35,365 nucleotides of DNA from positions 1-35,365 of the forward strand of contig JAPUER010000083.1 of assembly GCA_027492485.1 (NCBI GenBank), written 5' to 3'. Of the stretch, positions 1 to 35,141 are shown piece by piece. A program made the position numbers and the translations under genes. How positions within the stretch are numbered: the stretch's first letter is position 1; the number at the start of each line of letters is the position of its first letter. The notes beneath the pieces are model-generated. The model saw only the letters and a list, made by a program, of their open reading frames with translations, was not told the DNA's origin and made no database searches. The stretch comes from Betaproteobacteria bacterium (lineage in GTDB: Bacteria > Pseudomonadota > Gammaproteobacteria > Burkholderiales > Casimicrobiaceae).

Positions 1-842
1 TTGCCGTCCTTCCAGACCGACTGGTGAACGTGCATGCCCGAGCCGTTGTCGCCGACGATCGGCTTCGGCATGAAGGTGACCGTCTTGCCATAGAGCGCGG
101 CGGTGTTCCAGATCGCGTACTTGAGCACCTGCGTCCAGTCGGCGCGCTGCACCAGCGAGCTGAACTTGGTGCCGATTTCGCACTGGCCGGCGTTGGCGAC
201 TTCGTGGTGGAACACTTCCACCGGCACGCCCATTTCCTTGATCGCGAGCACCATCGCGTTGCGCAGGTCCTGCAACTGGTCGACCGGCGGCACCGGGAAG
301 TAGCCACCCTTGACGGTCGGGCGATGGCCCTTGTTGCCGCCTTCGTGCTTGGCGTCGGTTTCCCAGGCGGCTTCTTCCGAGAAGATCTTGCAGTAGGAGC
401 CGGACATGTCCACCTTCCACTCGACCGAGTCGAAGATGAAGAATTCGGGTTCCGGACCGAAGTAGGCGACGTCGCCGACGCCGGAAGATTTGAGGTAAGC
501 CTCGGCGCGCTTGGCCAGCGAGCGCGGGTCGCGGTCGTAGCCCTTGCCGGTCGACGGTTCGATCACGTCGCAGGTGATGTTGAGCGTGGTTTCTTCGACG
601 AAGGGATCGATCACGGCGGTGGCCGGATCGGGCATCAGCAGCATGTCGGAGGCTTCGATGCCCTTCCAGCCGGCGATCGAGGAGCCGTCGAAGGCATGGC
701 CTTCGGTGAATTTGTCGGCGTCGAACATGTCTTCCGGCACTTGCACGTGCTGCTCTTTGCCACGGAAGTCGGTGAAGCGGAGGTCGACGAACTTGACTTC
801 GTCGTCCCTGATTTTCTTGAGGACGTCGGCTCCAGTGGCCAT
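1..842 (-). CDS. glnA: Glutamine synthetase, type I (C-terminus outside the window)
   Basis: The protein joins ammonia to glutamate using ATP, in the cytoplasm, and is the central nitrogen-assimilation enzyme. About 280 N-terminal residues are present. Diagnostic segments are [10 protein letters not shown], the metal-binding PEPEFF, the [15 protein letters not shown] stretch and the ATP-site [10 protein letters not shown] just before the window edge. The ATG at 842 follows a clear AGGAG about 8 bases upstream. The gene is cut by the window border, so the adenylylation-site tyrosine cannot be checked. A 620-bp upstream region carries sigma-54/NtrC-type signals, which fits nitrogen control of this gene. 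Confidence 0.97.
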
Positions 843-967
843 GCGGGTTCTCCTAGCGCTGAAATAAAGTGGTGCGTTGGTACGGTGGGTTGCCTGCAGC
901 GTTGGCGCGGGCTCGCCGCCGTGGTGTCCACGCGGCGAGCGTCGGTCATGCTGATTCACACGCTCAA

Positions 968-983
968 TGCAGAAAACATGCCA
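968..983 (-). promoter_or_regulatory. Sigma-54 (-24/-12) promoter of glnA
   Basis: On the minus strand the sequence reads TGGCATGTTTTCTGCA. The -24 GG and -12 GC dinucleotides are exactly ten bases apart, and the match to the consensus TGGCACG-N4-TTGCA is close. Transcription would begin near 957, giving a leader of about 115 nt before the glnA ATG. NtrC-like sites lie about 200 bp upstream, a usual enhancer distance. The assignment comes from motif and context only. Confidence 0.65.
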
Positions 984-1155
984 TTGCCGCGCGACTCCAG
1001 ACACAATGCTAGCCGGTCGCCCGCGACGCTGCGCGAGCGCGGTCGTTGCCGGCGCCGCCGCTGTTCGCGCGGAAAATCGGTGGGCTCGAACGCGGAGAGT
1101 TGTACATCCGGGCCGCACAATAAAGGTGCATTACGGGCGTCGAATCGTGGCAAAT

Positions 1156-1199: not shown

Positions 1200-1224
1200 T
1201 ATGTGGTATCAGCTTTTTGTTCAA
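1196..1224 (-). promoter_or_regulatory. Possible sigma-70 promoter overlapping the NtrC-like sites
   Basis: On the minus strand, TTGAAC (1219-1224) and TATGCT (1196-1201) are separated by 17 bases. The -10 overlaps the second NtrC-like site, which is the arrangement of the enteric glnAp1 promoter that NtrC represses. Each hexamer matches consensus at only 4 of 6 positions, and the -35 lies inside a dispersed repeat (1208-1285), so this is tentative. Confidence 0.33.
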
Positions 1225-1285
1225 AGCGCTTCTGATTAAGGTACAGAACGCCAATTTTCGCTAAGTCGACTTGAGGAAAAATACC
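1208..1285 (+). repeat. Dispersed 80-bp intergenic repeat, copy 1
   Basis: This copy shows ATCAGCTTTTT, then GCGCTT (1226-1231), 33 bases, then GTCGAC (1265-1270) and an A-rich end. The same anchors with the same 33-base spacing occur at four other intergenic sites in this window. It lies between the 3' end of ccmI and the glnA control region. Confidence 0.65.
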
Positions 1286-1462
1286 GTGCTATGCCCCATT
1301 GAAACGCGTGCCATGCCAAAAAGCTGAACAGCAGTCGAGCGTGGCGATCGCGACCGGTGTCGGCGAGCGTCTGGTCGCGCGTTCCGAGTCGCACGCACCG
1401 AGCTTTGCGGCTGCGCGTCGCCGCCGCGCCGCCCGACGCGCAGCCGGCCGGCGCCGCAAACC

Positions 1463-2722
1463 CTAGTTCACGCGCTGATCGATGCTGAGGGTGGTGGTTG
1501 CCGGCAGTTTGACGACCGCCTTCTGGCTCTGCCAGTCGCCCGCCTGCGCCATCGGCTGCCCGCCGATCGACAGCCGGGCCTGCAGCGTGACTTCGGCGCC
1601 GTCCTTGAGACCGGCGCCACCGATCATCGTGTCGGCGTTGCCGAGCAGCACCTGTTTGTCCAGCGCGGCGACGTCAAGTCGCTTCACCGCCAGTGGCGGC
1701 CCGCTATCGGCACCGGCGGCGCGCACGATCAGGAAAACGGCCGAGGAGGCGCCCACCGCCTTGCGGGCATCGGCGCCGAGTTGCAATTGCAGCGTCGCCA
1801 GTGGTGCGCTGGCGGTGCTGTTGCCGGCACCAGTGCCAGTGCCGCCGCCGGCGCCGCGCGACTTGATGTCGGCCAGTGCGTTGTCGGCGATCTGCGCGAA
1901 GCCTGAGTTGGGCTCCACCAGCGAGCGGGCGAGGGTGAAGGATTTTTCGGCGGCGGCCCACTGGTTCTGCTGAATCTCCCCGGTGCCCTTGAGCAGCAAC
2001 GCTTTCGGATTGCGTGGATCGATCGCCAGTGCCTTGTTGACCAGCGTCAGCGGTTTGCCGTCGATCTTGCCCTGCGCCTCGCCGGCCGCCGCATCGGCGT
2101 AGTCGGCCCAGACATCGGCATCGTCGGCCGCCAGTGCGGTGGCCTTTTCATACGCCTGCATCGCCTCGGCGAAACGGCCCACCGATGCCTTCGCCCGCGC
2201 CAGCAGCAGCCAGCCCTTGAGATCGCCCGGGTTGCTTTGCAAGCGCTCCTCGGCCATGCGGAACAATTGGTCCATCGATTGCCCGTCGTGCGGACTGCCC
2301 GCGCCAGCTCCTGCGGCTGCGGCCTGCGGCCGCACCACCTCGGGAATGGCAGCGGCGGGCGAGCCGATCAGCAGATAACCGGCAATCGCCAGCAGCGGCA
2401 CCATGATGCCCAGGGCGATGGCCGTTCGCGGGTAGCGACCGGCGGCGACGGCGCGTTCGCCCTCGGCTTCGGCCAGCACCCGCGACTCCAGTTCGCGCTC
2501 GGCTTCGGCGAGTCCGTCGGCCGAGAGCAGACCAAGCTGGCGATCGCGCCGTGCTTCGGCCAGTTCCACGCGCAGGGCGTCGACATTGCTGCTGCCGCTA
2601 TCCGGCACGCGGGACGGATCGGCGGCCGCGGTACGGCGCGCCAGCAGCGGGCGCAACAGCAGCCACAGCGCCACGATCGTGATGAAAAGTATGGCGGCAA
2701 CGAGTGCGATCGCAGGATTCAT
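1463..2722 (-). CDS. ccmI: Cytochrome c maturation protein CcmI (CycH-type TPR protein)
   Basis: CcmI is a membrane protein that captures apocytochrome c and presents it to the CcmF-CcmH haem lyase on the periplasmic side. This 419-residue protein has an N-terminal transmembrane helix (about residues 3-25), a cytoplasmic loop, and a second helix near residues 101-122. After that come TPR repeats (about 150-270, with NPGDLKGWLLLARAKASVG and DPRNPKALLLKG segments). The C-terminal domain (about 305-419) is typical of CycH. Its ATG overlaps the ccmH stop (ATGA at 2719-2722), indicating translational coupling. It is the last gene of the ccmF-ccmH-ccmI run. Confidence 0.92.
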   Translation of the reverse strand: MNPAIALVAAILFITIVALWLLLRPLLARRTAAADPSRVPDSGSSNVDALRVELAEARRDRQLGLLSADGLAEAERELESRVLAEAEGERAVAAGRYPRTAIALGIMVPLLAIAGYLLIGSPAAAIPEVVRPQAAAAGAGAGSPHDGQSMDQLFRMAEERLQSNPGDLKGWLLLARAKASVGRFAEAMQAYEKATALAADDADVWADYADAAAGEAQGKIDGKPLTLVNKALAIDPRNPKALLLKGTGEIQQNQWAAAEKSFTLARSLVEPNSGFAQIADNALADIKSRGAGGGTGTGAGNSTASAPLATLQLQLGADARKAVGASSAVFLIVRAAGADSGPPLAVKRLDVAALDKQVLLGNADTMIGGAGLKDGAEVTLQARLSIGGQPMAQAGDWQSQKAVVKLPATTTLSIDQRVN

Positions 2723-9495: not shown

Positions 9496-10281
9496 ATGTT
9501 CGCCCCCACCGAGCTTTACAACGACGGTAAACACATCTGCATCTCGTTTTCCGATCTGGTCAGCGAAGCCGGCGACGCCGTCCAGGCCAACCAGTTTCTG
9601 GTCGTCGACAACGGCGACGACGCCCTGATCGATCCGGGCGGCAACATGACCTACCACGCGCTGTACATGACCATGTCGCGCTATGTGCCGCCGAAGAAGC
9701 TGCGCTACGTCTGCGCCTCGCACGCCGACCCGGACATCATCGCCTCGCTCGCGCGCTGGCTAGGCGGCACCGACTGCCAGCTGGTCATCTCCAGCATCTG
9801 GTCGCGTTTTGCGCCGCATTTCTGTACCGGCACCAGCACCGAGGGCCGCATCATGGCGATCAAGGACGAGGGCGCCATCCTGCCGCTGGGCAAAAGCAGT
9901 CTGCACGTGATTCCGGCGCACTTTCTGCACGCCGAGGGCAACTTCCAGTTCTACGATCCGGTGTCCAAGATCCTGTTCTCCGGCGATCTTGGCGCCTCGC
10001 TGATGCCGCCGAAGATCTGCGGTCAGGCAGTCCCCAATTTCGCCCGCCACATTCCGAACATGGAAGGCTTCCACCGCCGCTACATGGTGTCGAACAAGGT
10101 TTGCCGCCTGTGGGCGCGCATGGTGCGCCAGCTCGACATCGAGATGATCGTGCCGCAGCACGGCCCGTTCTTCAAGGGCCCCACCATGTGCAACCAGTTC
10201 ATCGACTGGGTCGAGAACCTCTCCTGCGGCGTCGACCTCGTTTCCGAGGCGAACTACATGCTGCCGCAGTCGCGACTGTGA
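9496..10281 (+). CDS. Stand-alone flavodiiron-type metallo-beta-lactamase domain protein (oxygen-binding di-iron protein-like)
   Basis: The 261-residue protein has only the di-iron beta-lactamase-fold domain of flavodiiron (FprA/ODP) proteins and lacks the C-terminal flavodoxin domain. Likely metal ligands are His76, Asp78 and Asp80 (motif HADPD, where classical flavodiiron proteins have HxExD), His145 in FLHAEGN, Asp164 in FSGDLG and His222 in PQHGPF. The HAEGNFQFYDP stretch is characteristic. Relatives reduce O2 or NO or act as oxygen sensors; which applies here is not known, and a redox partner would have to come from elsewhere. GGAG precedes the ATG at 9496. An FNR-type box lies upstream, suggesting low-oxygen induction. 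Confidence 0.85.
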   Translation: MFAPTELYNDGKHICISFSDLVSEAGDAVQANQFLVVDNGDDALIDPGGNMTYHALYMTMSRYVPPKKLRYVCASHADPDIIASLARWLGGTDCQLVISSIWSRFAPHFCTGTSTEGRIMAIKDEGAILPLGKSSLHVIPAHFLHAEGNFQFYDPVSKILFSGDLGASLMPPKICGQAVPNFARHIPNMEGFHRRYMVSNKVCRLWARMVRQLDIEMIVPQHGPFFKGPTMCNQFIDWVENLSCGVDLVSEANYMLPQSRL

Positions 10282-10306: not shown

Positions 10307-10386
10307 ATTGGCTTTTCGCTGGAAACGTTATGTAATAGGGCGGAGCAACCGGAAATACACGAAGTCGACAATCGTGTAAAACCGGC
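10307..10386 (+). repeat. Dispersed 80-bp intergenic repeat, copy 2
   Basis: ATTGGCTTTTCG is followed by a degenerate GCGCAT-like hexamer (10325-10330), 33 bases with GGG at the shared position, and GTCGAC (10364-10369). It lies between the flavodiiron-like gene and ssrA and points toward ssrA. Confidence 0.65.
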
Positions 10387-10474
10387 CGCCAGCGCCTATC
10401 TAAAGCCGTTGCCATTGAAAAGCCATTGCCGTCCGCGTTTGCCGCCGCAATTGACCGGTGGACCGGTGCCGACG

Positions 10475-10544: not shown

Positions 10545-10934
10545 GGGCCCGACCTGGTTTCGACGGGAGTTCTGATATGCGCTTGGGGCATGTCGAGGGG
10601 TAGCTCCTCGTTAATCCGCTGCAAAGCAATTTAATTGCAAACGATAGCTTCTACGGCGAAAGCCGTCTCGCAGCCTAATTAAAAACTAGGTTCGAGTGTT
10701 GCAGCAGGGGACGTGGACCCTGCGCCGAGCCGGGTAACTGGTAAAGCCGCAACATCCTCTTGCCACGGGTAGGGTGCGCGACTGTCTGCGGCGCGCGTCC
10801 GAAATCAAGCGGGCTGGCTGGCGGCGAGGGTGCTCATGCTCGCGTCGACGGCAAGATCAAATCACTGAGCTAAGCATGTAGTCCCGACCATCGATGGCTT
10901 TCGGACGCGGGTTCAATTCCCGCCGGGTCCACCA
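10545..10934 (+). ncRNA. ssrA: Transfer-messenger RNA (tmRNA)
   Basis: tmRNA rescues stalled ribosomes and adds a degradation tag. The 5' acceptor strand GGGCCCG (10545-10551) pairs with CGGGTCC (10924-10930), followed by encoded ACCA (10931-10934). The conserved 5' block GACCTGGTTTCGACGGG and a T-arm GCGGG-TTCAATT-CCCGC are present. The resume codon is GCA at 10637, and the reading frame to TAA at 10676-10678 gives ANDSFYGESRLAA. The LAA end is the usual ClpXP signal, but the middle is longer and different from common proteobacterial tags. It is the one-piece form. Confidence 0.97.
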
Positions 10935-10977: not shown

Positions 10978-11184
10978 GGAGGTACGGAGCGAGTGGTAGC
11001 CCGTTCGCCTGAGCGACGGGGTTGGAACCCCATCCAGCCGCCAAACCCTCCAACCGTTCCGCGCGTGCGTCGGACGCTCCGTTCAGAGCCTGCGGGGATG
11101 GACGGCACTTGTTCGGCGCGTCCGTAGCTTGAAAGTGATAGGTACTCAGGTACGTTCTGGAAGGTACTGATTTCACGAAATGTC
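10978..11184 (+). other. Intergenic stretch downstream of ssrA, no gene seen
   Basis: No convincing coding sequence was found here. Three AGGTAC units (11140-11145, 11148-11153 and 11162-11167) lie just upstream of the MerR-type promoter and could be part of an operator. The 3' flank of ssrA is a common integration site in bacteria, but no integrase and no second copy of the tmRNA 3' end was found in this window. Confidence 0.4.
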
Positions 11185-11215
11185 TTGACATTAACGCTAA
11201 CTTGAGACTTAGAGT
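11185..11215 (+). promoter_or_regulatory. MerR-type promoter/operator 1 (upstream of the DJ-1/PfpI gene)
   Basis: TTGACA (11185-11190) and TAGAGT (11210-11215) are separated by 19 bases, the long spacer typical of MerR-activated promoters. The spacer holds the imperfect dyad CTAACTT-GA-GACTTAG. The first ten bases (TTGACATTAA) and the TTGA-centred core are shared with operator 2 at 12663-12693. A merR gene lies two positions downstream. Confidence 0.7.
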
Positions 11216-12086: not shown

Positions 12087-12521
12087 ATGAAAATCGGCGA
12101 ATTGGCCAAGCGCAGCGGCTTGGCACCCTCCACGATCCGCTTCTACGAAACCAAGGGACTGTTGAACGCGGTCAGCAGGCAGAGCAATGGCTACCGGGAA
12201 TACCCTCTGGGAGCCGTTGCGCTGCTGTCGATCATTGCCAATGCGCAGCAAACGGGCTTCACGCTGGACGAGATCAGACAAATTCTTCCCGAGGACATCG
12301 CGCGCTGGCAACATGACGAGCTACTGGCCGCACTGCGAAAGAAGATTCGGGACATTGAATCGATGGAGGTTCGGCTGGCGCAGAACAAGGCTCACCTTCA
12401 GAACTTGATTCAACTGATCGACACCAGGCCCGCGGACATGGATTGTTCGGACAACGCGGCGCGGGTGTTGGACAGCATGGGCATTGCCGGCACCCGGAAG
12501 TCCGATAGTCGTGTGAAGTAG
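12087..12521 (+). CDS. MerR family transcriptional regulator
   Basis: This short regulator (144 residues) has an N-terminal MerR winged helix-turn-helix (MKIGELAKRSGLAPSTIRFYETKGLL, then GYREYPL near 36-42). A long dimerisation helix covers about residues 75-115, and the C-terminal tail contains the only cysteine (DMDCSDN). It lacks the multi-cysteine pattern of classical metal sensors, so the inducer may be an organic or redox signal. An AAGGAG site precedes the ATG. Two promoters with 19-bp spacers and a shared dyad flank it, which suggests that it controls its own operon and the decarboxylase-like gene. Confidence 0.92.
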   Translation: MKIGELAKRSGLAPSTIRFYETKGLLNAVSRQSNGYREYPLGAVALLSIIANAQQTGFTLDEIRQILPEDIARWQHDELLAALRKKIRDIESMEVRLAQNKAHLQNLIQLIDTRPADMDCSDNAARVLDSMGIAGTRKSDSRVK

Positions 12522-12662
12522 CGCTTGGCCGTGAAAGCCGCTTGGCGAGGCTGCGAGCGCCAGCGCCTGCGACGACCGGTTGTTCGCCACACTCAAGAAG
12601 ACAACGCACAAGCCTTCGGGCTCCTGCCGAGGCAACTCGCACATCCCATTTCAAAAATACGC

Positions 12663-12693
12663 TTGACATTAAAGTTAAGTTGAAACTTAAGCT
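12663..12693 (+). promoter_or_regulatory. MerR-type promoter/operator 2 (upstream of the ADC-like gene)
   Basis: TTGACA (12663-12668) and a weak TAAGCT (12688-12693) are 19 bases apart. Between and over them is the perfect dyad TTAAGTT-GA-AACTTAA. The layout and sequence match operator 1 at 11185-11215. Confidence 0.7.
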
Positions 12694-19903: not shown

Positions 19904-22132
19904 CTACACCTTGCCGAGCTGGTCTTTCAGTGGCAGGTTACGCACGCGCACGCCGGTGGCCGCGAAAATCGCATTGAGCACGGCCGGCGCCGCCACCGCG
20001 ATGGTCGGCTCGCCGACACCGCCCCAGAAGTCGCCGGAGGGCACCACGACCGTCTCCACCTTGGGCATCTGCGCCATCTTGAGGCTTGGGTAGTTGTGGA
20101 AATTGCTCTGCTCGATGCGGCCGTCTTTCACCGTGCATTCCTGATAGAGCGCGGCGGACAGGCCGTATACGAACGAGCCTTCCACCTGTGCCTCGATCTG
20201 CTGCGGATTGACCGCGTTGCCGCAGTCGGTGCCGGCGACGATGCGGTGAATCTTCAGCGCGCCGCCCTTGCCGACCGACACCTCGGCAATCGCCGCGACG
20301 TAAGAGCCAAAGCCCATCGTCTGCGCGATGCCGCGGAACACGCCGGCGGCCGGTGGTTTGTCATAGCCGATCTTCGCCGCGACGGCATTGAGCACCGCCA
20401 GATGCTTCGGGCTCTTCGCCATCAGCTTGCGGCGCAGGGCCAGCGGGTCCTGCTGCGTCGCGTGCGCGATCTCGTCGATGAAGCATTCGAGATAAATCGT
20501 GTTCTGGTTGAGGTTCACGCCGCGCCAGAAACCGGCCGGCACGTGCGGGTTGCGCATCGCGTAGTCGATGCGCAGCGCCGGGATGCTGTAGCCGATCGAG
20601 GCCTCCGGCCCCGGCGGATTGAGTCCCTGAAACACCACCGGATCCTTGCCGTCGCGAATCATCTGCGGGTTGACCGTGGCCAGGATCGATTGCCCGGCAA
20701 TGCGCATCGACAGGCCCGCGATTTCGCCGCGATCGTCGAGCCCGGCCACCAGCTTGCAGTGGGTGACCGGATGGAAGCGGCCTTGCGCCATGTCTTCCTC
20801 GCGCGACCAGATCATCTTGATCGGCACGCCGGGCATTTCCTTGGCGATGAGCACCGCCTTGCGCACATAGTCGGTGGCGCCGCGACGGCCGAAACCGCCG
20901 CCGAGATGGATCTTGTAGACCTCGCATTGCGCCGGCTTCAGGCCCGCTGCCTCGGCCGTCGCCGCCAGCGCCGCCTCGCCGTTTTGCGTCGGCAGCCACA
21001 CCTCGCAGCGCTCCGCCGTCCATTTCACCGTGGCGTTCATCGTCTCCATGCAGGCATGGTTCTGGTGCGGATAGGTGTAGACCGCTTCGATGCGCCGCGC
21101 GGCGTTGTCGATGGCGCTGACGGCGTTGCCGACGTCGTTGCCGATCGCCGCGTCGGTGCTTTCCAGCGCGTCATTGAGCACCTCGGCGAACGCTTCGCTG
21201 CTGGCTTTGGCATTGGCGCCGGCGTCCCACTCCACCTTCAGCGCGTCGAGCGCCGTCTTGGCGCGCCACCAGGTGTCGGCAATCACGGCGACGCCGCTGT
21301 CGCCGACACGCACCACTTTCCTGACGCCGGGGCGCTTCATGGCCGCCGCTTCGTCGTAGCTTTTCACTTTGCCGCCGAACACCGGGCAATCGCTCATCGC
21401 CGCGTTGAGCATGCCCGGCAGCTTCAGATCCATGCCATAGACCTGTTTGCCGGTGGTCTTGTCCACCGTGTCGAGACGGGCCATGCGCTTGCCGGCGATC
21501 TTCCAGTCCTTGACCGGCTTCAGCGCGATGTCCTTCGGTGGCGGCAGTTTCGATGCCGCCACCGCCACCTTGCCGTAGGTGGTGCTGCGTTTGCTGGCGC
21601 CGTGCGTGATGACGCCCTTGCTGACGCTGCACTCGGCGGCCGGCACTTTCCAGCCGTCGGCCGCCGCCTGCACCAGCGCCATGCGGGCGGCGGCGCCGCC
21701 CTTGCGCACATAGTCGTGCGATTGCCGGATGCCGCGGCTGCCGCCGGTGGAGAAATCGCCCCACACGCGTTCGCGTTTCAGGTTCTGGCCCGGCGTCGGG
21801 TATTCGGTGCTGACGCGGGCCCAGTCGCATTCCAGCTCCTCGGCCACCAGTTGCGCGAGGCCGGTCAGCGTGCCTTGACCCATCTCGGAGCGTGCGATGC
21901 GGATTACCACACGCTCGTCGGGCTGGATCACGACCCAGGCGTTGATCTCGGGCGTCGTGGCCGCGTTGGCGGGCGCCTGCGCGAGCGCCGGCTGGCCGAT
22001 GAGCGGCAAGTGAAAACCGAGCACCAGTCCGCCGGTGGCGCCGGCACTCTGCTTCAGGAAGTTGCGGCGGCTGGCGCGGGCGGGCGCGCCGGTGCGTGTG
22101 GCGGAGCCGGATTTGCGGGTGGGCGCGTTCAT
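19904..22132 (-). CDS. Large (molybdopterin) subunit of an IorB-type xanthine oxidase family hydroxylase
   Basis: The 742-residue protein is the catalytic subunit of a periplasmic Mo hydroxylase resembling isoquinoline 1-oxidoreductase IorB. It opens with a Tat signal (SRRNFLK at 21-27). Cofactor-binding segments are [19 protein letters not shown] (92-110) and GGGFGRR (421-427). The catalytic glutamate is Glu708 in GVGEP (705-709). Substrates of this group are N-heterocycles or aldehydes, and which is used here is unknown. A cytochrome usually accepts electrons from IorAB-like enzymes. The start overlaps the 2Fe-2S subunit stop (ATGA). soxX follows after 36 bp. Confidence 0.93.
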
Positions 22133-22680
22133 GCCTTGACTCCTTCTGCCGCTTTGGCGTGCTCGATGTCGAGCGCGCTCTTGCCGAGTTCGGCCTTGTT
22201 GTGCATCTTGCCGCCGGTTCTGGCCGCCGCCATTTCGGTGGCGGCGACGTGAATCGCGGCGCGCACGCGGTTGTAAGTTCCGCAGCGGCAGATGTTGGTC
22301 ATCGCTTCATCGATGTCCTGATCGCTCGGGTTCGGCTTTTCCTTGAGCAGCGCGGTGGCCGCCATGATCATGCCGGACTGGCAGAAACCGCACTGCGGCA
22401 CGTCGAGCGCCTGCCACGCGCGCTGCACCGGATGCGAGCCGTCCTTCGACAAGCCCTCGACGGTGACGATTTTCTGGCCTGGCTTGACGGCGGCGGCCGG
22501 CATCACGCAGGCGCGCACGGCGACGCCATCGATATGCACGGTGCAGGCACCGCATTGCGCGATGCCGCAGCCGTACTTGGTGCCGGTCAACCCCAGTTGT
22601 TCTCGCAGCACCCACAAGAGCGGGGTTCCCTCGTCGGCCGCGTAGTCAAGCGGCTTGCCGTTCACGTTCAAGCGGGCCAT
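22129..22680 (-). CDS. 2Fe-2S small subunit of the IorA-type molybdenum hydroxylase
   Basis: This 183-residue subunit passes electrons out of the Mo centre. It carries the plant-type 2Fe-2S motif [17 protein letters not shown] (about 38-54, with a further Cys near 59) and the second four-helix 2Fe-2S motif CGFCQSGMI with CRCGTY. It has no export signal of its own and is probably exported with the Tat-bearing large subunit. The ATG at 22680 has an AAGGAG site; an upstream in-frame GTG is less likely. It is the first gene of the six-gene operon that ends with soxA. Confidence 0.95.
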
Positions 22681-22705
22681 GTGCACTCCTTGTAGTCCGG
22701 GCGCG

Positions 22706-22735: not shown

Positions 22736-23150
22736 GAGTCTTTCTGCATCGTTGCCCGTCGGCGGTTCCGGAAACGGGCGTCGTTTCGGCTCCAACGTGA
22801 ACGGCCGTGAACGGCCGATCCCGTGCGCGCACGACTTGGCACGAAACCGTCGGGGCATTAGTCATTGATCAGCTTTTCGACGTAATGCGCATGAAATAGG
22901 GGCTAGCAAGGACATTTGATCGATTGTCGACTTCTCATTAAATCGCGCTGTAGACGGCATTGAATGTGCGTTTGGATAAAAAAGATGATCGCCGGGCGTC
23001 GTCGCATCCAATTTCCCTCTGCCGATTGCGCAATGGAACCATGTGCGGCGCGGTCGAGATCGTCGCCGAAGCGCAAGCGATCTGGTCCGGCCGCGAGCGC
23101 CGACGTGGATCGGAAGTAGACTTTGCCATTCGTCCCGCAAGGAGCCCGGC
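22736..23150. other. Intergenic region between divergent operons
   Basis: No gene was recognised here. The stretch holds a short tandem duplication (GTGAACGGCC twice, about 22797-22816) and dispersed repeat copy 3 (22868-22946). The rest, up to the SRPBCC gene, shows open frames but no family resemblance. Confidence 0.5.
22868..22946 (+). repeat. Dispersed 80-bp intergenic repeat, copy 3
   Basis: ATCAGCTTTTCG is followed by GCGCAT (22887-22892), 33 bases, and GTCGAC (22926-22931), then an AT-rich end. It points toward the SRPBCC gene at 23151. Confidence 0.68.
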
Positions 23151-23642
23151 ATGTCCAACGACACTCAAAACTGCTTCACCGAAGCCAGCGGCTTGCACGA
23201 GCTTTCGATCACCCGGCTGTTCGAGGTGCCGGCCGCAAAACTCTGGCGTTGCTGGACCGAGCCGGCGCTGCTGGTGCAGTGGTTCACGCCGCCGCCGTGG
23301 CGGACGGTGCACGCCGAAACCGATGTGCGTCCCGGCGGCGCAAGCTACATCGTGATGCAGGGGCCGGACGGCACCCAGATGCCCAATCGCGGTGTGTACC
23401 TCGAAGTGATCCCGAACAAAAAACTCGTGTTCACCGACGCCTACACCTCGGCATGGGTGCCGTCCGGCAAACCGTTCTTCACCGGCATCATCACTTTTGA
23501 CGACGAGGGCGGCAAGACGCGCTACACCGCCCGGGCGCTGCACTGGACGGCCGCGGACAGCGCCGCCCACGAGGCGATGGGCTTCCACGAAGGCTGGGGC
23601 AAGGTCGCCGAACAGATGGCCGCGCTGGCCGCCACGCTGTAA
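23151..23642 (+). CDS. SRPBCC/AHSA1-type domain protein
   Basis: This is a 163-residue START-like ligand-binding domain of the Aha1/CalC group. The segments ITRLFEVPAAKLWRCWTEPALLVQWF (about 19-44), DVRPGGASYIVM and the C-terminal MGFHEGWGKVAEQM are typical of the family. Such proteins bind small hydrophobic ligands, but the ligand is unknown. The ATG at 23151 has an AAGGAG site; upstream in-frame codons show no conserved pattern. It is 16 bp ahead of a second SRPBCC gene. Confidence 0.88.
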   Translation: MSNDTQNCFTEASGLHELSITRLFEVPAAKLWRCWTEPALLVQWFTPPPWRTVHAETDVRPGGASYIVMQGPDGTQMPNRGVYLEVIPNKKLVFTDAYTSAWVPSGKPFFTGIITFDDEGGKTRYTARALHWTAADSAAHEAMGFHEGWGKVAEQMAALAATL

Positions 23643-24256: not shown

Positions 24257-24745
24257 ATGAACATCCAGCCTTCAAACAAGGTGACACCGTTTCTGTGGTT
24301 CGACTCGCAGGCAGAGGACGCCGCAAAGCGCTACGTTTCGCTGGTTCCCAATTCGCGCATCATCGACGTCAATCATTGGGGCAAGGGCTCGCCGTTTCCC
24401 GAAGGGTCGGTGATGAGCGTCATCTTCGAGCTCGACGGTCGCCAGTACATCGCCCTCAATGCGGGGCCGCACTACAAACTCAATCCCGCGTTCTCGCTGT
24501 TCGTCAGTTGCGACGATCAGGCCGAGGTGGATCGCTACTGGGAGGCGTTGCTGGCGGATGGCGGTGCACCCAGCCAATGCGGCTGGCTCAGCGACCGCTT
24601 CGGCGTGACTTGGCAGATCGTGCCGAAGGCGCTCGGCCGCCTGCTCGCCGACCCGGACCCGGTGCGAGCCGGCCGCGCCATGCAGGCGATGCTCGGTATG
24701 GTCAAGCTTGACATCGCGGCACTGGAGAAAGCCGCCGCCGGCTAA
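24257..24745 (+). CDS. VOC family protein, PhnB/YjdN-like
   Basis: The 162-residue protein has a glyoxalase-bleomycin-resistance type fold. It begins with VTPFLWFDSQAEDAAKRYVSL (9-29). GRQYIALNAGPHYKLNPAFSLFV and the late SDRFGVTWQIVPKAL segment mark the PhnB-like subgroup, often annotated 3-demethylubiquinone-9 3-methyltransferase-like. The real activity of this subgroup is unknown. AAGGAG precedes the ATG. Its TAA stop codon (24743-24745) is also the left target-site duplication of a small mobile element, so the gene end was preserved by the insertion. Confidence 0.88.
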   Translation: MNIQPSNKVTPFLWFDSQAEDAAKRYVSLVPNSRIIDVNHWGKGSPFPEGSVMSVIFELDGRQYIALNAGPHYKLNPAFSLFVSCDDQAEVDRYWEALLADGGAPSQCGWLSDRFGVTWQIVPKALGRLLADPDPVRAGRAMQAMLGMVKLDIAALEKAAAG

Positions 24746-24904
24746 GAACTTGTCCGTAAATAAACCGGGGCGGTCAACTGGTCATTTTTGTCGCACTCTT
24801 CGTTGCTTTTTCTCGCCATAGCCCCGCTATGTCTTCGAAAGCGCCTCGATTGCAACAAAACTTCCGGCGTTGACCATCCCCTCTTATTTACAGACAAGTT
24901 CTAA
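24743..24904. mobile_element. 156-bp MITE with terminal inverted repeats and TAA target duplication
   Basis: The element spans 24746-24901. Its left end GAACTTGTCCGTAAATAA and right end (complement GAACTTGTCTGTAAATAA) match at 17 of 18 bases. It is flanked by TAA on both sides (24743-24745 and 24902-24904). It is non-coding and contains a small hairpin ATAGC-CCC-GCTAT. A 3-bp TNA target duplication is known for some IS5-family (IS1031-type) elements, so that may be the mobilising family. No matching transposase is in the window. Confidence 0.82.
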
Positions 24905-24931
24905 GGCAGGGCGGACGGCGCCTGCACGCCG

Positions 24932-31602: not shown

Positions 31603-32463
31603 TCAGGGGTCGTCGCGCACGCGCAGGAAGCTGGCGAAGCGCGGTTTGCCGGCCGGCGTGACGTCGCGATAGGTGTAGGTCACCACGCTGCCCACCGGCG
31701 GCGGGTGGTTGCGCTGGGCGTCGCTGAAGCCGGTGCCAAGGCGGAACACGACGCCGTCGCGCGTTTTCACTTCCAGCGCGCCGAGCCGGCCGCGATTGCG
31801 GCCCTTGCCTTCGATGTGGCGAAGCACCGTGGCTTCGGTGTCGAGCAGCGGTTTCAGCTTGAGCAGCACGTCGCTGCGGCCGGTCACGTAGGGCGCGTCG
31901 GCAAGATGCAGCATCAGGCCTTCGCCGCCGGCCTTGACCGCGCGGTCGAGCCGGCGTTTCAGTTCGGCGCGATCGGCCACGCGGGTCTGTTCGACGGCTT
32001 GCAGCGGCGGCCAGGCAGCGGCGGCGACCACGTCGCGGATGCGCGCGTAGCGTTGCTCGAACGTGCCCAGCGTGCCCGCTTCGTCCGGCAGCTCGAAGAT
32101 CATGTAGTTGACGCGCTGCCAGTCGGCAGCGACCGCCGGTGTGGTGCGCACGATGCCCGAAAGTTCGTCGAACTTGCCGCGCGCCAGCCACAGCTCGCCA
32201 TCGAGCGCCGTCGCCGGCAGCTTTGCCAGCCACCACGCCGGCGCCGGCACCTCGCGCCCGCTGCGGAAGCGCAGCGTCCTGCCGTCCCACAGCGCGCGCA
32301 CGCCGTCGTACTTTTCGCTGACCAGATAGTGCCTGACGTCGACGTTCGGCCCAAGCACGTTGGCGAGCAGCAGAGCGGGCTCTTTCGCCACGCTGCCGCG
32401 GGCAAGGCAGGCCAGCACGAGGCAGACGACAAGCAAGCAGCGGATGCGAAGCGACGCGGACAT
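31603..32463 (-). CDS. ligE: Exported ATP-dependent DNA ligase (Lig E type)
   Basis: The protein has 286 residues and a signal peptide (about 1-26), as in Lig E enzymes that are thought to act in the periplasm, perhaps on incoming or biofilm DNA. Nucleotidyltransferase motif I is EKYDGVRALW with the adenylated lysine Lys51. ALDGELWLARGKF, MIFELPDE, GGEGLMLH and LLKLKP correspond to the later motifs, and an OB-fold makes up the C-terminal 80 residues. It has only the minimal catalytic core. No strong ribosome-binding site precedes the ATG at 32463. Confidence 0.9.
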   Translation of the reverse strand: MSASLRIRCLLVVCLVLACLARGSVAKEPALLLANVLGPNVDVRHYLVSEKYDGVRALWDGRTLRFRSGREVPAPAWWLAKLPATALDGELWLARGKFDELSGIVRTTPAVAADWQRVNYMIFELPDEAGTLGTFEQRYARIRDVVAAAAWPPLQAVEQTRVADRAELKRRLDRAVKAGGEGLMLHLADAPYVTGRSDVLLKLKPLLDTEATVLRHIEGKGRNRGRLGALEVKTRDGVVFRLGTGFSDAQRNHPPPVGSVVTYTYRDVTPAGKPRFASFLRVRDDP

Positions 32464-32769
32464 CCGACAACTCTATCCGCACCGGTCGAGAACAATCAGC
32501 TTTTTAGTGAATGGCGCATCTGATATGGGCAAACAGCCATATTTACTACAAAGTCGACAAATGCACTTTTGCCCCTCTAGACCTTGATTGACGGTCATTG
32601 CATGAAAAAGATGATGGACGCCGAGCCTCCGACTGGCGAGCCCCGGGCCGCGTCGTTGGCAAGCAGGCGCACCGCATTTCTCTGTCAACCGCCGGTCGCG
32701 ACGCCTCGTTACCTGCGCGCCGCCGCACCTTTCCTGCGGCATCGATTTTTTTGCCGAAGGAGTCACGCC
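32464..32769. other. Intergenic region between ligE and the Tat-exported protein gene
   Basis: This stretch holds repeat copy 4 (32495-32573) and then a gene-free segment. TTGACG at about 32588 is -35-like, but no convincing -10 follows. Open frames crossing it show no family resemblance. Confidence 0.45.
32495..32573 (+). repeat. Dispersed 80-bp intergenic repeat, copy 4
   Basis: ATCAGCTTTTT is followed by GCGCAT (32514-32519), 33 bases containing GGGCAAA, GTCGAC (32553-32558) and a TTTGCCC that can pair with GGGCAAA. It is one of the best-preserved copies and points toward the Tat-exported protein gene. Confidence 0.72.
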
Positions 32770-33312
32770 ATGTCGTCCGTTCCGTCCTGCCTGCAGTCCC
32801 GCCGTGATTTCATGCTCAATGGTGCCCGCGCCGGCGCCACCGTCGCTGCCGTGACGGCGCTGGCCTCGGCGCCCGGCGCGATCGCCGCCGCATTCGGCGA
32901 CGACGAGGTTGCGCCAACCCCGAGCAGCGATCTGCTGCACGCGCTCGGCGGCCGCATCGGCCTCGAAGTGGCGAGCGTAATCGGCAGCGGCGGGCAGCCG
33001 TTGGCGATGGCCTACGTCGATGCCGCCGGCCCCTCGGTGGATGCGCTGCGCCTGGGCATGGCGCAGGGCCTTGAATGGCAGACGCGCTGCGCGGCGCAGT
33101 GCATCGAGACGCAAGCCTCGCCGTCCACCGTGATCGCCGTGGCGCACGTCAGCAACCCGGCGACCGGCCGCAGCGCCCGCGTCGAAATCGATGCCGTCGC
33201 CCTCAGCGTGATCGGCCTGATCGAATCGATCAACGTCCCCGGCAGCGCGCAAAAGAACGCGGTGCTGACGGCGAGTGCCGACAATCTCTACCGCATTCGC
33301 TACGACGCGTAG
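32770..33312 (+). CDS. Tat-exported protein of unknown function
   Basis: The 180-residue protein starts with a twin-arginine signal (SRRDFML at 10-16, hydrophobic stretch to about 40). The mature part is about 140 residues with alternating hydrophobic patterns and two cysteines close together (AAQCIE region). No family was recognised. AAGGAG lies 8 bp before the ATG at 32770, and the coding sequence has the codon use of its neighbours. The product is probably periplasmic and folded before export, so a cofactor is possible but not shown. Confidence 0.75.
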   Translation: MSSVPSCLQSRRDFMLNGARAGATVAAVTALASAPGAIAAAFGDDEVAPTPSSDLLHALGGRIGLEVASVIGSGGQPLAMAYVDAAGPSVDALRLGMAQGLEWQTRCAAQCIETQASPSTVIAVAHVSNPATGRSARVEIDAVALSVIGLIESINVPGSAQKNAVLTASADNLYRIRYDA

Positions 33313-33373
33313 CCGGTTGCGGCGATGGCCGCGGCGGCGCGGCCTCTTTGCCGGGTTAAAATGATTCGGTCAT

Positions 33374-33525
33374 TGGGGAGTAGCCGCCCGCCAGCGCCGC
33401 CATCGCGGCGCCGGGAGCGGGGCACGCGTCAACACACTTGACCATCCGGTCATGGCGCGTGCGGCGGTGGCGCACTGTGTTGCGCTGCGCCGTGTCTGGC
33501 AAGACCTTTGGCTGCACAGCCTCCG
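33374..33525 (+). ncRNA. Manganese riboswitch (yybP-ykoY family)
   Basis: The 5' block TTGGGGAGTAGCC (33374-33386) and the 3' block TGGCAAGACCTTTGG (about 33497-33511) are the two conserved parts of the yybP-ykoY aptamer, which binds Mn2+. The downstream gene is a GDT1-type manganese exporter, the usual partner. The exact 3' limit and the expression platform were not determined. It lies directly upstream of the exporter start at 33583. Confidence 0.85.
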
Positions 33526-33582
33526 CTCGCGCCGGGGATGCCGTGCAGTCATCGGTTCATCTTCCGGCGCCGGACTGCCCAC

Positions 33583-34171: not shown

Positions 34172-34924
34172 CTACACCGACATGCCGCCCGACACTTCGA
34201 TCACCGCGCCGTTGATGTAGCTCGCTTCGTCGCTGGCAAGGAAGGCGTAGACGTTGGCGATTTCCTCCGCCGTGCCGAGGCGGTGCAGCGGCACGCGCGC
34301 TTTCATCTCGTCGAGCACCTTGTCGGGGATGGTGGCGAGGATCGGCGTGGCGATGAAGCCCGGCGCCACGGCGTTGACGCGCACGCCCTTGGGGCCAAGC
34401 TCGCGGCTCCATGTCTTGGTGAAGCCGATCACGCCGAATTTGCTGGCGGCGTAATTGGTCTGGCCGAAGTTGCCGTAGATGCCAACCACCGACGAGGCAT
34501 TGAGGATCACCCCCGCGCCCTGCGCGACCATGATGTCCGCCACTGCCTGCGCGCAATGGAACACGCCGCGCAGGTTGACGTCGATCACGCGGTCGAACTG
34601 CGCCAGCGTCATCTTCTGCAGCCGCGCGTCCTGCGTGATGCCGGCGTTGTTGACCAGCACGTCGATGCGGCCAAAGTCCGCCTTGACTTTGGCAACCACC
34701 AGATCGATCGCCGCGCGGTCGGTGACGTCGAGCACGTAGCCCGCCGCCTTGGCGCCGAGCGCCTGGCATTGCTGCACTGCGTCGTCGACGCCGGGCTGCT
34801 TGACGTCGCAGATGACAACGTCCGCCCCTTCGCGGGCGAACTTGAGAGCGGTGGCGAGCCCGATGCCTTGTGCGGCGCCGGTGATGAGGGAAACTTTGCC
34901 TGCGAGGCGTTGCGCTGGATTCAT
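34172..34924 (-). CDS. FabG-type short-chain dehydrogenase/reductase (3-oxoacyl-ACP reductase-like)
   Basis: The 250-residue SDR has a Rossmann cofactor site TGAAQGIG (15-22), NNAG (92-95), the catalytic serine in LNASSVVG (about Ser144) and YAASK (Tyr158, Lys162). The end [16 protein letters not shown] is typical of FabG. It probably reduces 3-oxoacyl-ACP or 3-oxoacyl-CoA with NAD(P)H. No other fatty acid synthesis genes are next to it, so it is likely an additional FabG paralogue. It is convergent with the exporter gene, 4 bp apart. Confidence 0.93.
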
Positions 34925-35060
34925 GATGGTTTGCGAAAGAGTCGAGCCGGCAGTGTAGCCAGCGGCGGGCTTTTCATGCTGCGCCGCGTCAAATGCGTGA
35001 GCTGCGGAGCAGCGCGAGTACAGCTTTCATGGAGAAAGCATTGTTTGTATTGGCCTGCAA

Positions 35061-35141
35061 GCCATTTTTATGTCAATGTCGACTTGTTGAAAAAACATGC
35101 GCTTTGCCCAGTAAATATGCGCGTTCCACGAAAAAGCCAAT
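35061..35141 (-). repeat. Dispersed 80-bp intergenic repeat, copy 5 (inverted)
   Basis: Read on the minus strand: ATTGGCTTTTTCG, GCGCAT (35117-35122), 33 bases with GGGCAAA, GTCGAC (35078-35083), then an A-rich end. It points toward the FabG-type gene. Confidence 0.7.

Follow-up and report, generated by a model that had tools for sequence, protein, structure and literature searches.

Intergenic elements and their gene context

The window, that is, the whole stretch of 35,365 nucleotides analysed here, carries five copies of an intergenic repeat. The initial annotation had described them as 80-bp segments, and their places, strands and sequence anchors were all correct. A profile of the repeat arm, built from 53 arms at 27 loci that all lie outside the window, recovers the five copies (5/5) in a search of 400 kb, whereas reversed sequence gives five matches with a best E of 0.23. 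A second, inverted arm is present in every copy and is weak in three of them. The elements and the features next to them are listed by position.

1208..1327, dyad element 1: arms 1208-1272 (+, E 5e-8) and 1263-1327 (-, E 5.1e-9), centre GTCGAC at 1265-1270
1463-2722 (-), CcmH/CycH-like gene (Pfam), its 3' end adjoined by element 1
9496-10281 (+), metallo-beta-lactamase-fold gene (Pfam), on one side of element 2
10307..10427, dyad element 2: arms 10307-10369 (+, E 3.9e-7) and 10362-10427 (-, E 3.7e-5), centre at 10364-10369
10545-10934 (+), tmRNA, on the other side of element 2
22129-22686 (-), 2Fe-2S gene (Pfam), divergent from the AHSA1 gene across element 3
22868..22982, dyad element 3: arms 22868-22933 (+, E 2.6e-8) and 22926-22982 (-, weak, E 0.057), centre at 22926-22931
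23151-23642 (+), AHSA1 gene (Pfam)
31603-32463 (-), DNA-ligase-like gene (Pfam), divergent from the next open reading frame across element 4
32495..32613, dyad element 4, the copy first annotated: arms 32495-32558 (+, E 3.8e-12) and 32551-32613 (-, weak, E 0.041), centre at 32553-32558
32758 or 32812-33312 (+), open reading frame without a Pfam match
34172-34924 (-), short-chain dehydrogenase gene (Pfam), with element 5 ~95 bp upstream
35020..35141, dyad element 5: arms 35077-35141 (-, E 1.8e-10) and 35020-35085 (+, E 0.0028), centre at 35078-35083

Several other features were seen in the same window. The tmRNA (10545-10934) has the predicted tag ANDSFYGESRLAA; usual tmRNA tags are shorter. 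Direct repeats of 42 bp (11170-11211 and 12648-12689, 76% alike) lie upstream of the genes that flank a regulator-like gene (12087-12521), presumably MerR-like. Just downstream of a gene there is an inverted repeat with 37-nt arms (24742-24778 and 24869-24905) that are 90 nt apart and 81% complementary, and a manganese (yybP-ykoY) riboswitch (33358-33528) is found upstream of a GDT1-family transporter gene (33508/33583-34167).

Architecture of the dyad

The unit is an imperfect palindrome of ~122 bp, in which two inverted arms of ~61 bp meet head to head at AAGTCGACTT. The 80-bp segment originally described is real, but it is only the left part of this dyad, and the inverted second arm had been missed. 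Examined by eye around the centre in 30 fetched loci, representing 27 distinct elements, the second half is the inverted first half; a clear exception is L014, where the right arm is replaced by other DNA. Consistent with the fixed internal spacing proposed at the outset, the own genome (G000) contains 103 exact matches to the strict pattern GCTTTT-N8..24-CAT-N25..40-AAGTCGAC, a count in which one element may score twice through its two arms, whereas the reversed-pattern control gives none. Nearly all of the matches listed are 59-60 bases long, and several form face-to-face pairs with one GTCGAC in common.

The majority letters of the arm are approximately CAGCTTTTnGCTGAAAGCGCCATTnnATATGGGCTCAnnGCnnnATTTnnnnnAAGTCGAC, many of them weak. 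Highly conserved anchors, namely AGCTTTT, AA, CAT, GGGC, a run of A or T and AAGTCGAC, stand out along the arm, and the central TCGA is nearly invariant across dyad elements, with the reservation that the centre letters are favoured by the way in which the centre was placed, namely where AAGTCGACTT fits best. Information is close to zero at distances of more than 62 bp from the dyad and totals 84 bits over 124 positions (54 elements, ungapped), whereas 14.4 bits would be needed to mark ~370 sites; this excess suggests several contacts per site. The elements are also poorer in G+C than their flanks (45% vs 66%). Both arms were detected in 54 of the 72 elements of an 800-kb set and a single arm in 18 (E 0.1), so strict symmetry is not maintained. 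By eye the conserved columns lack a 3-base pattern, and the idea that the arm is coding was dropped on this ground.

Some elements carry additional DNA. A GC-rich hairpin repeat of the CTCCCCCG..CGGGGAAGG type lies at or just beside the central GTCGAC in three dyad elements (L014; G000 C16:5169 onward, L040:5169; G000 C79:196124-196317, L153:16124-16317), where it replaces or displaces the right arm; the junction letters are common to two of the three. In the related genome G005, the arms of one element (C1:3806100-3807072; L174:16100-17072) are ~870 bp apart with an open frame in the insert, and the G000 orthologue is intact.

Abundance, placement and distribution

We counted 84 elements in 983,535 of the 4,123,058 bases of G000 and 108 in 1,316,000 of the 4,465,898 bases of G005, taking split elements as one. 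This corresponds to ~350 and ~370 elements per genome, respectively, densities that may be slightly high since the stretches were not a random sample: they were chosen because contigs were long, because synteny was present and, in part, because elements were already known there. With genes called by an in-house codon-score script instead of a standard gene finder, no element of the 800-kb set lies within a called gene, and overlap with gene ends is at most 14 bases. All elements of the larger set touch an intergenic gap apart from four, which lie at the ends of fragments and have no overlapping gene.

The 72 elements of the 800-kb set occupy 34 tandem, 21 divergent and 16 convergent gaps, with one unplaced, and the nearest gene ends are at a median of 40 bp (3') and 142 bp (5'). 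Four of the copies had been said to point toward gene starts; as the unit is a dyad, orientation toward a gene carries little meaning. These distributions bear as well on the suggestion of a regulator-binding cassette. Protein binding is the nearest of the three options initially offered, but no connection with promoters is evident in view of the convergent gaps and the nearer 3' ends. We regard as quite improbable a regulon in which a global transcription regulator binds the elements: among the five window copies, four do have a gene or tmRNA downstream on at least one side, and the protein-binding character would fit, whereas 16 of 72 elements in gaps where no promoter is expected, gene ends nearer than gene starts and the even spacing described below would not be predicted.

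The family is confined to one genus. A sequence-only profile, trained on 70 elements taken from four genomes, detects the family in 16 of the 17 genus genomes, counting the own one; 12 of these 16 had contributed nothing to the training. It is negative in G016 of the same genus as well as in 7/7 same-family and 16/16 same-order genomes, so that none of the 23 other genomes is positive. Since the search is limited to scoring up to 86 candidates per genome over the two strands, its figures are not copy numbers. The expectation of further copies above chance is clearly upheld. Since G016 is without the family, the dyads are not essential in the genus. The strict pattern alone matches in 15 of 60 genomes, own included; three genomes outside the genus, with 1, 1 and 2 matches, are at about the level of the reversed control and were taken as chance. 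In a strict-pattern scan of genome contigs, the 17 stretches found all belong to MAGs named 'Burkholderiales bacterium' or 'Proteobacteria bacterium', and viral contigs gave 0 matches to one strict pattern. Upstream of the tmRNA, the 16 genus loci with a full tmRNA have a clear element in five cases, a doubtful one in two (E 0.5-0.75) and none in nine, so the element has not been retained throughout the genus.

Other, more uniform many-copy intergenic repeats occur in G000 (C16:3127-3238, 121314-121380 and 122720-122823; C83:76395-76513 and 76855-76973); they are likely separate families of REP or MITE type.

Positional inheritance and constraint at the anchors

G000 and G005 are a distant pair for a comparison of filled and empty sites, with an amino-acid identity of 0.88 and 0.60 identity at 4-fold sites. 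Among 233 conserved neighbourhoods, obtained from 637 reciprocal best hits and requiring a gap of at least 100 bp, 39 have an element in both genomes, one in G000 only, one in G005 only and 192 in neither, which bears out conserved position relative to genes. Because only 2 of 41 sites are one-sided, detection bias must be small. None of the 272 conserved gaps shorter than 100 bp has an element. Earlier subsets of the same G005 data gave 10/0/0/41 and 27/1/1/123 (both/one/one/neither), and the neighbourhoods of G015 compared with G000 gave 2/0/0/19. Within the window, four of the five elements have a counterpart in G005 at one of the same gene edges; for element 1 the tested edge is empty, and an element adjoins the homologue of window 1-1032 instead.

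Orthologous arms (n=42) are 0.916 identical at the anchors and 0.443 at variable columns, compared with 0.863 and 0.340 for unrelated arms. Four of the 29 element-bearing neighbourhoods behind this set were dropped (two split elements, two one-sided), leaving 50 arms, of which the 42 with sufficiently few gaps were used. The annotation had called the family old or under selection for the anchors, and the anchors are indeed well above the 4-fold sites. Taken together, the orthologue identities and the shared positions indicate from sequence comparison that the sites are old, drifting between the anchors and held at them. A further claim, that arms evolve faster than flanks, was dropped, as alignment scores drop to a similar degree (0.239 per base for 50 orthologous arms and 0.297 for 50 flanks; unrelated pairs 0.080 and 0.055, respectively).

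Some arms contain a terminator-like hairpin (GGGCCCGCAGGCCC; GCCCGC..GCGGGC followed by T's), as at G000 C16:127092-127206 and C53:116889-117012. This hairpin is similar in G005 though the rest of the element has drifted; one of the orthologue comparisons behind this covered 10 pairs.

Search for copying or mobility

No recent near-identical copies were found among 122 arms of G000 (7381 pairs): the maximum identity at variable columns is 0.75, and the maximum over arm pairs in 20 shuffles is 0.68 on average and up to 0.77. Nor do these 122 arms cluster around a master sequence. RAYT-like Y1_Tnp transposases (PF01797) occur in 15 of the 17 genus genomes, with three matches in G000, and also in 5 of 14 control genomes. 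The genus maximum, up to seven matches, is in G011, which has no strict pattern; RAYT presence therefore does not track strict-pattern counts.

These data bear on whether the dyads are functionless remnants of a repeat that was once mobile (MITE-, ERIC- or REPIN-like) and expanded in the ancestor of the genus. Intergenic location, AT-richness, inverted repeats, an ERIC-like length of ~120 bp, a genus-specific burst and the frequency of PF01797 in the genus would all suit such an origin. By contrast, the absence of recent copies among the arms, the 39/1/1 retention of positions, the even spacing and the failure of RAYT to follow pattern counts do not, and a dead repeat should decay evenly, whereas the anchors here are conserved far above neutral. 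We consider the remnant reading unlikely. As a present-day description, the MITE/REP-like option of the annotation is likewise abandoned for want of recent copies and in view of near-perfect positional inheritance. Spread of a once-mobile repeat followed by retention for a host function is a possible origin even if the dyads are now docking sites. In its behaviour the family looks unlike a mobile repeat and nearer to a set of docking sites than to a jumping repeat.

Rearrangements at the elements

An inversion distinguishes G000 (C53:116.9-180.4 kb; 63 kb) from G005 (3.908-3.981 Mb; 73 kb), and all four junctions have an element. One G000 arm fits the G005 arm facing the same gene (0.40) but none of the other three arms compared with it (<=0.02); the remaining three arms at the inversion have no clear match (<=0.08). 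In C16:1-20000, elements are found in three of four breaks relative to G005. Over all data, an element is present at 5 of 9 rearranged, 16 of 41 indel and 40 of 188 conserved junctions. The idea that elements are general rearrangement hot spots was weakened by gap length: the pooled Fisher p is 0.0056, but 0.084 after gap-length matching. Exchange at element centres is possible.

Site-specific cleavage or recombination could account for such exchange, if an enzyme acted on the GTCGAC of the centre, made accessory contacts with the arms and, by exchange between two sites, produced inversions or deletions. The four element junctions of the inversion, its one matching arm, the breaks in C16 and the other DNA located in or close to the centres of three elements of G000 and one of G005 speak for it. 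However, the other three inversion arms are unmatched, the association is not significant once gaps are matched, and neither the even spacing nor the constraint on ~350 places would be explained; we judge recombination rather improbable as the function of the dyads.

RNA structure and DNA shape

Among 96 arms there is no stem covariation, and dependencies above shuffled levels occur only between positions at most 2 apart (e.g. AAA or TTT, CA or TG). Such AAA/TTT and CA/TG swaps resemble, in our interpretation, a DNA shape read by a putative protein. At variable columns, left and right arms of the same element resemble each other (0.370, 52 pairs) no more than unrelated arms do (0.352). Apart from the centre letters that both arms share, agreement above that of shuffled pairs is seen in one GGGC column (z 5.4), perhaps through joint decay of whole elements. 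Folding of native elements is not better than that of chimeras combining arms of different elements (-38.4 vs -37.9 kcal/mol, p 0.37, 54 elements), and the window elements have no Rfam match. The small RNA suggested earlier can be set aside on the covariation and chimera results. More broadly, single elements can fold through the anchors and a few arms have terminator-like hairpins, as a structured RNA, terminator or mRNA processing signal would require, but with neither covariation, arm likeness, folding advantage nor Rfam match behind it, we give an RNA function only a very slight chance.

The strongest A/T period is 7.5-8 bp, with no clean helical period. Phasing of G+C at 9.5-11.25 bp gives p 0.02 in G000 and 0.005 in G005 over the whole 1-62 bp from the dyad and is not significant over 17-62 bp (p 0.18 and 0.11, respectively); DNA wrapping based on A/T phasing was dropped after these tests. 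The same measurements bear on strong DNA gyrase sites spread for supercoil management. The limit of information at 62 bp from the dyad and the near-invariant TCGA resemble a 130-bp symmetric motif with a 4-base cut, and even spacing is compatible with supercoil control. Yet the outer-arm phasing is not significant, anchors such as GGGC are base-specific, and restriction to a genus would be odd for a universal enzyme, which makes gyrase sites improbable.

Even spacing and interpretation

The elements are ~12 kb apart and more evenly spaced than expected, the null being gaps of 100 bp or more that were drawn at random with the orientation mix kept. The coefficient of variation is 0.66 in G000 (simulated 0.90, p 0.001) and 0.65 in G005 (simulated 0.91; as low in 0/3000), and distances below 2.5 kb between elements are fewer than expected (2 vs 12.6 and 2 vs 15.4). 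As the two genomes share many sites, these tests are not independent.

We tentatively regard the dyads as inherited docking sites for a putative symmetric DNA-binding complex that organises the chromosome, an explanation to which we assign a little less than an even chance. From the dyad itself, restriction to the genus, inheritance, constraint at the anchors, the lack of recent copies and of covariation, and even spacing, we infer protein binding, multimeric binding and a chromosome-organising role. A dedicated symmetric complex would make contact with double-stranded DNA over the centre and at separated blocks within either arm and, placed at ~350 sites, would hold or insulate the chromosome at points ~12 kb apart. 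Constraint at inherited positions across the chromosome, which was found here, is a feature predicted for sites of a chromosome-organising protein. On the other side, the known chromosome-organising sites of which we are aware carry far fewer than 84 bits, which counts against docking, as do the lack of a clean helical period, the elements with a single detected arm (18 of 72), the absence of the family from G016 and the sites common to both genomes in the spacing tests. An extended form is more doubtful: ~350 unique, inherited 122-bp sites might constitute a lattice in which a putative multimer every ~12 kb sets domains, with occasional exchange at the centres leading to inversions. We know of no system of comparably long, highly specific, genome-wide dyads.

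If a protein does bind, hundreds of its sites are already mapped to the base, and the setting of domains of ~10 kb becomes testable. The 84-bit dyads would moreover be an extreme case of sites that far exceed the information needed for finding them.

Comparison with known repeats and sites

Large palindromic intergenic repeats of bacteria are usually interpreted as mobile or once-mobile DNA. The dyad family has the opposite traits, namely unlike copies, fixed places, anchor constraint and even spacing. Among the known families, ERIC/IRU repeats of enterobacteria are palindromic, and REPINs consist of two REPs in inverted arrangement that RAYT transposases move. Inference also led us to set aside integron attC sites, paired promoters and telomere-like sites. 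A literature search of open-licence papers found no published description of the dyad family; the comparisons that follow draw on parts of the papers cited.

ERIC/IRU elements are described as about 127 bp long, intergenic, present in many copies, mobile and MITE-like, and also found inside genes (PMC2229807). The dyads share the length, the palindrome, the intergenic location and the many copies, but they are without alike copies, fixed in place and absent from genes. REPINs consist of two inverted units and are extragenic, with hundreds of copies (PMC3116915), and in models of their populations the members differ little from a master sequence (PMC8049555); REP doublets are reported to be randomly distributed. 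The paired inverted units, extragenic location and hundreds of copies are thus alike, whereas the dyads lack master-like copies and are evenly spaced. Caulobacter CIRs, of about 110 bp, intergenic, conserved between species and only partly MITE-like (PMC2229807), resemble the dyads in size, location and conservation between species. However, CIRs carry GANTC methylation sites and the dyad anchors do not, and the parts of the CIR descriptions consulted mention neither dyad arms nor even spacing. The E. coli gyrase motif spans 130 bp, is symmetric around a 4-base staggered cut and has a degenerate sequence whose flanks show GC phasing of 10.75 bp (PMC6379681). Length (~130 bp), symmetry and the 4-base centre are similar; in contrast, the dyads have base-specific anchors and no significant outer-arm phasing. 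Intergenic palindromic repeats are therefore known as a class, and a family that combines even spacing with unlike copies at fixed places represents, to our knowledge, a new variant of it.
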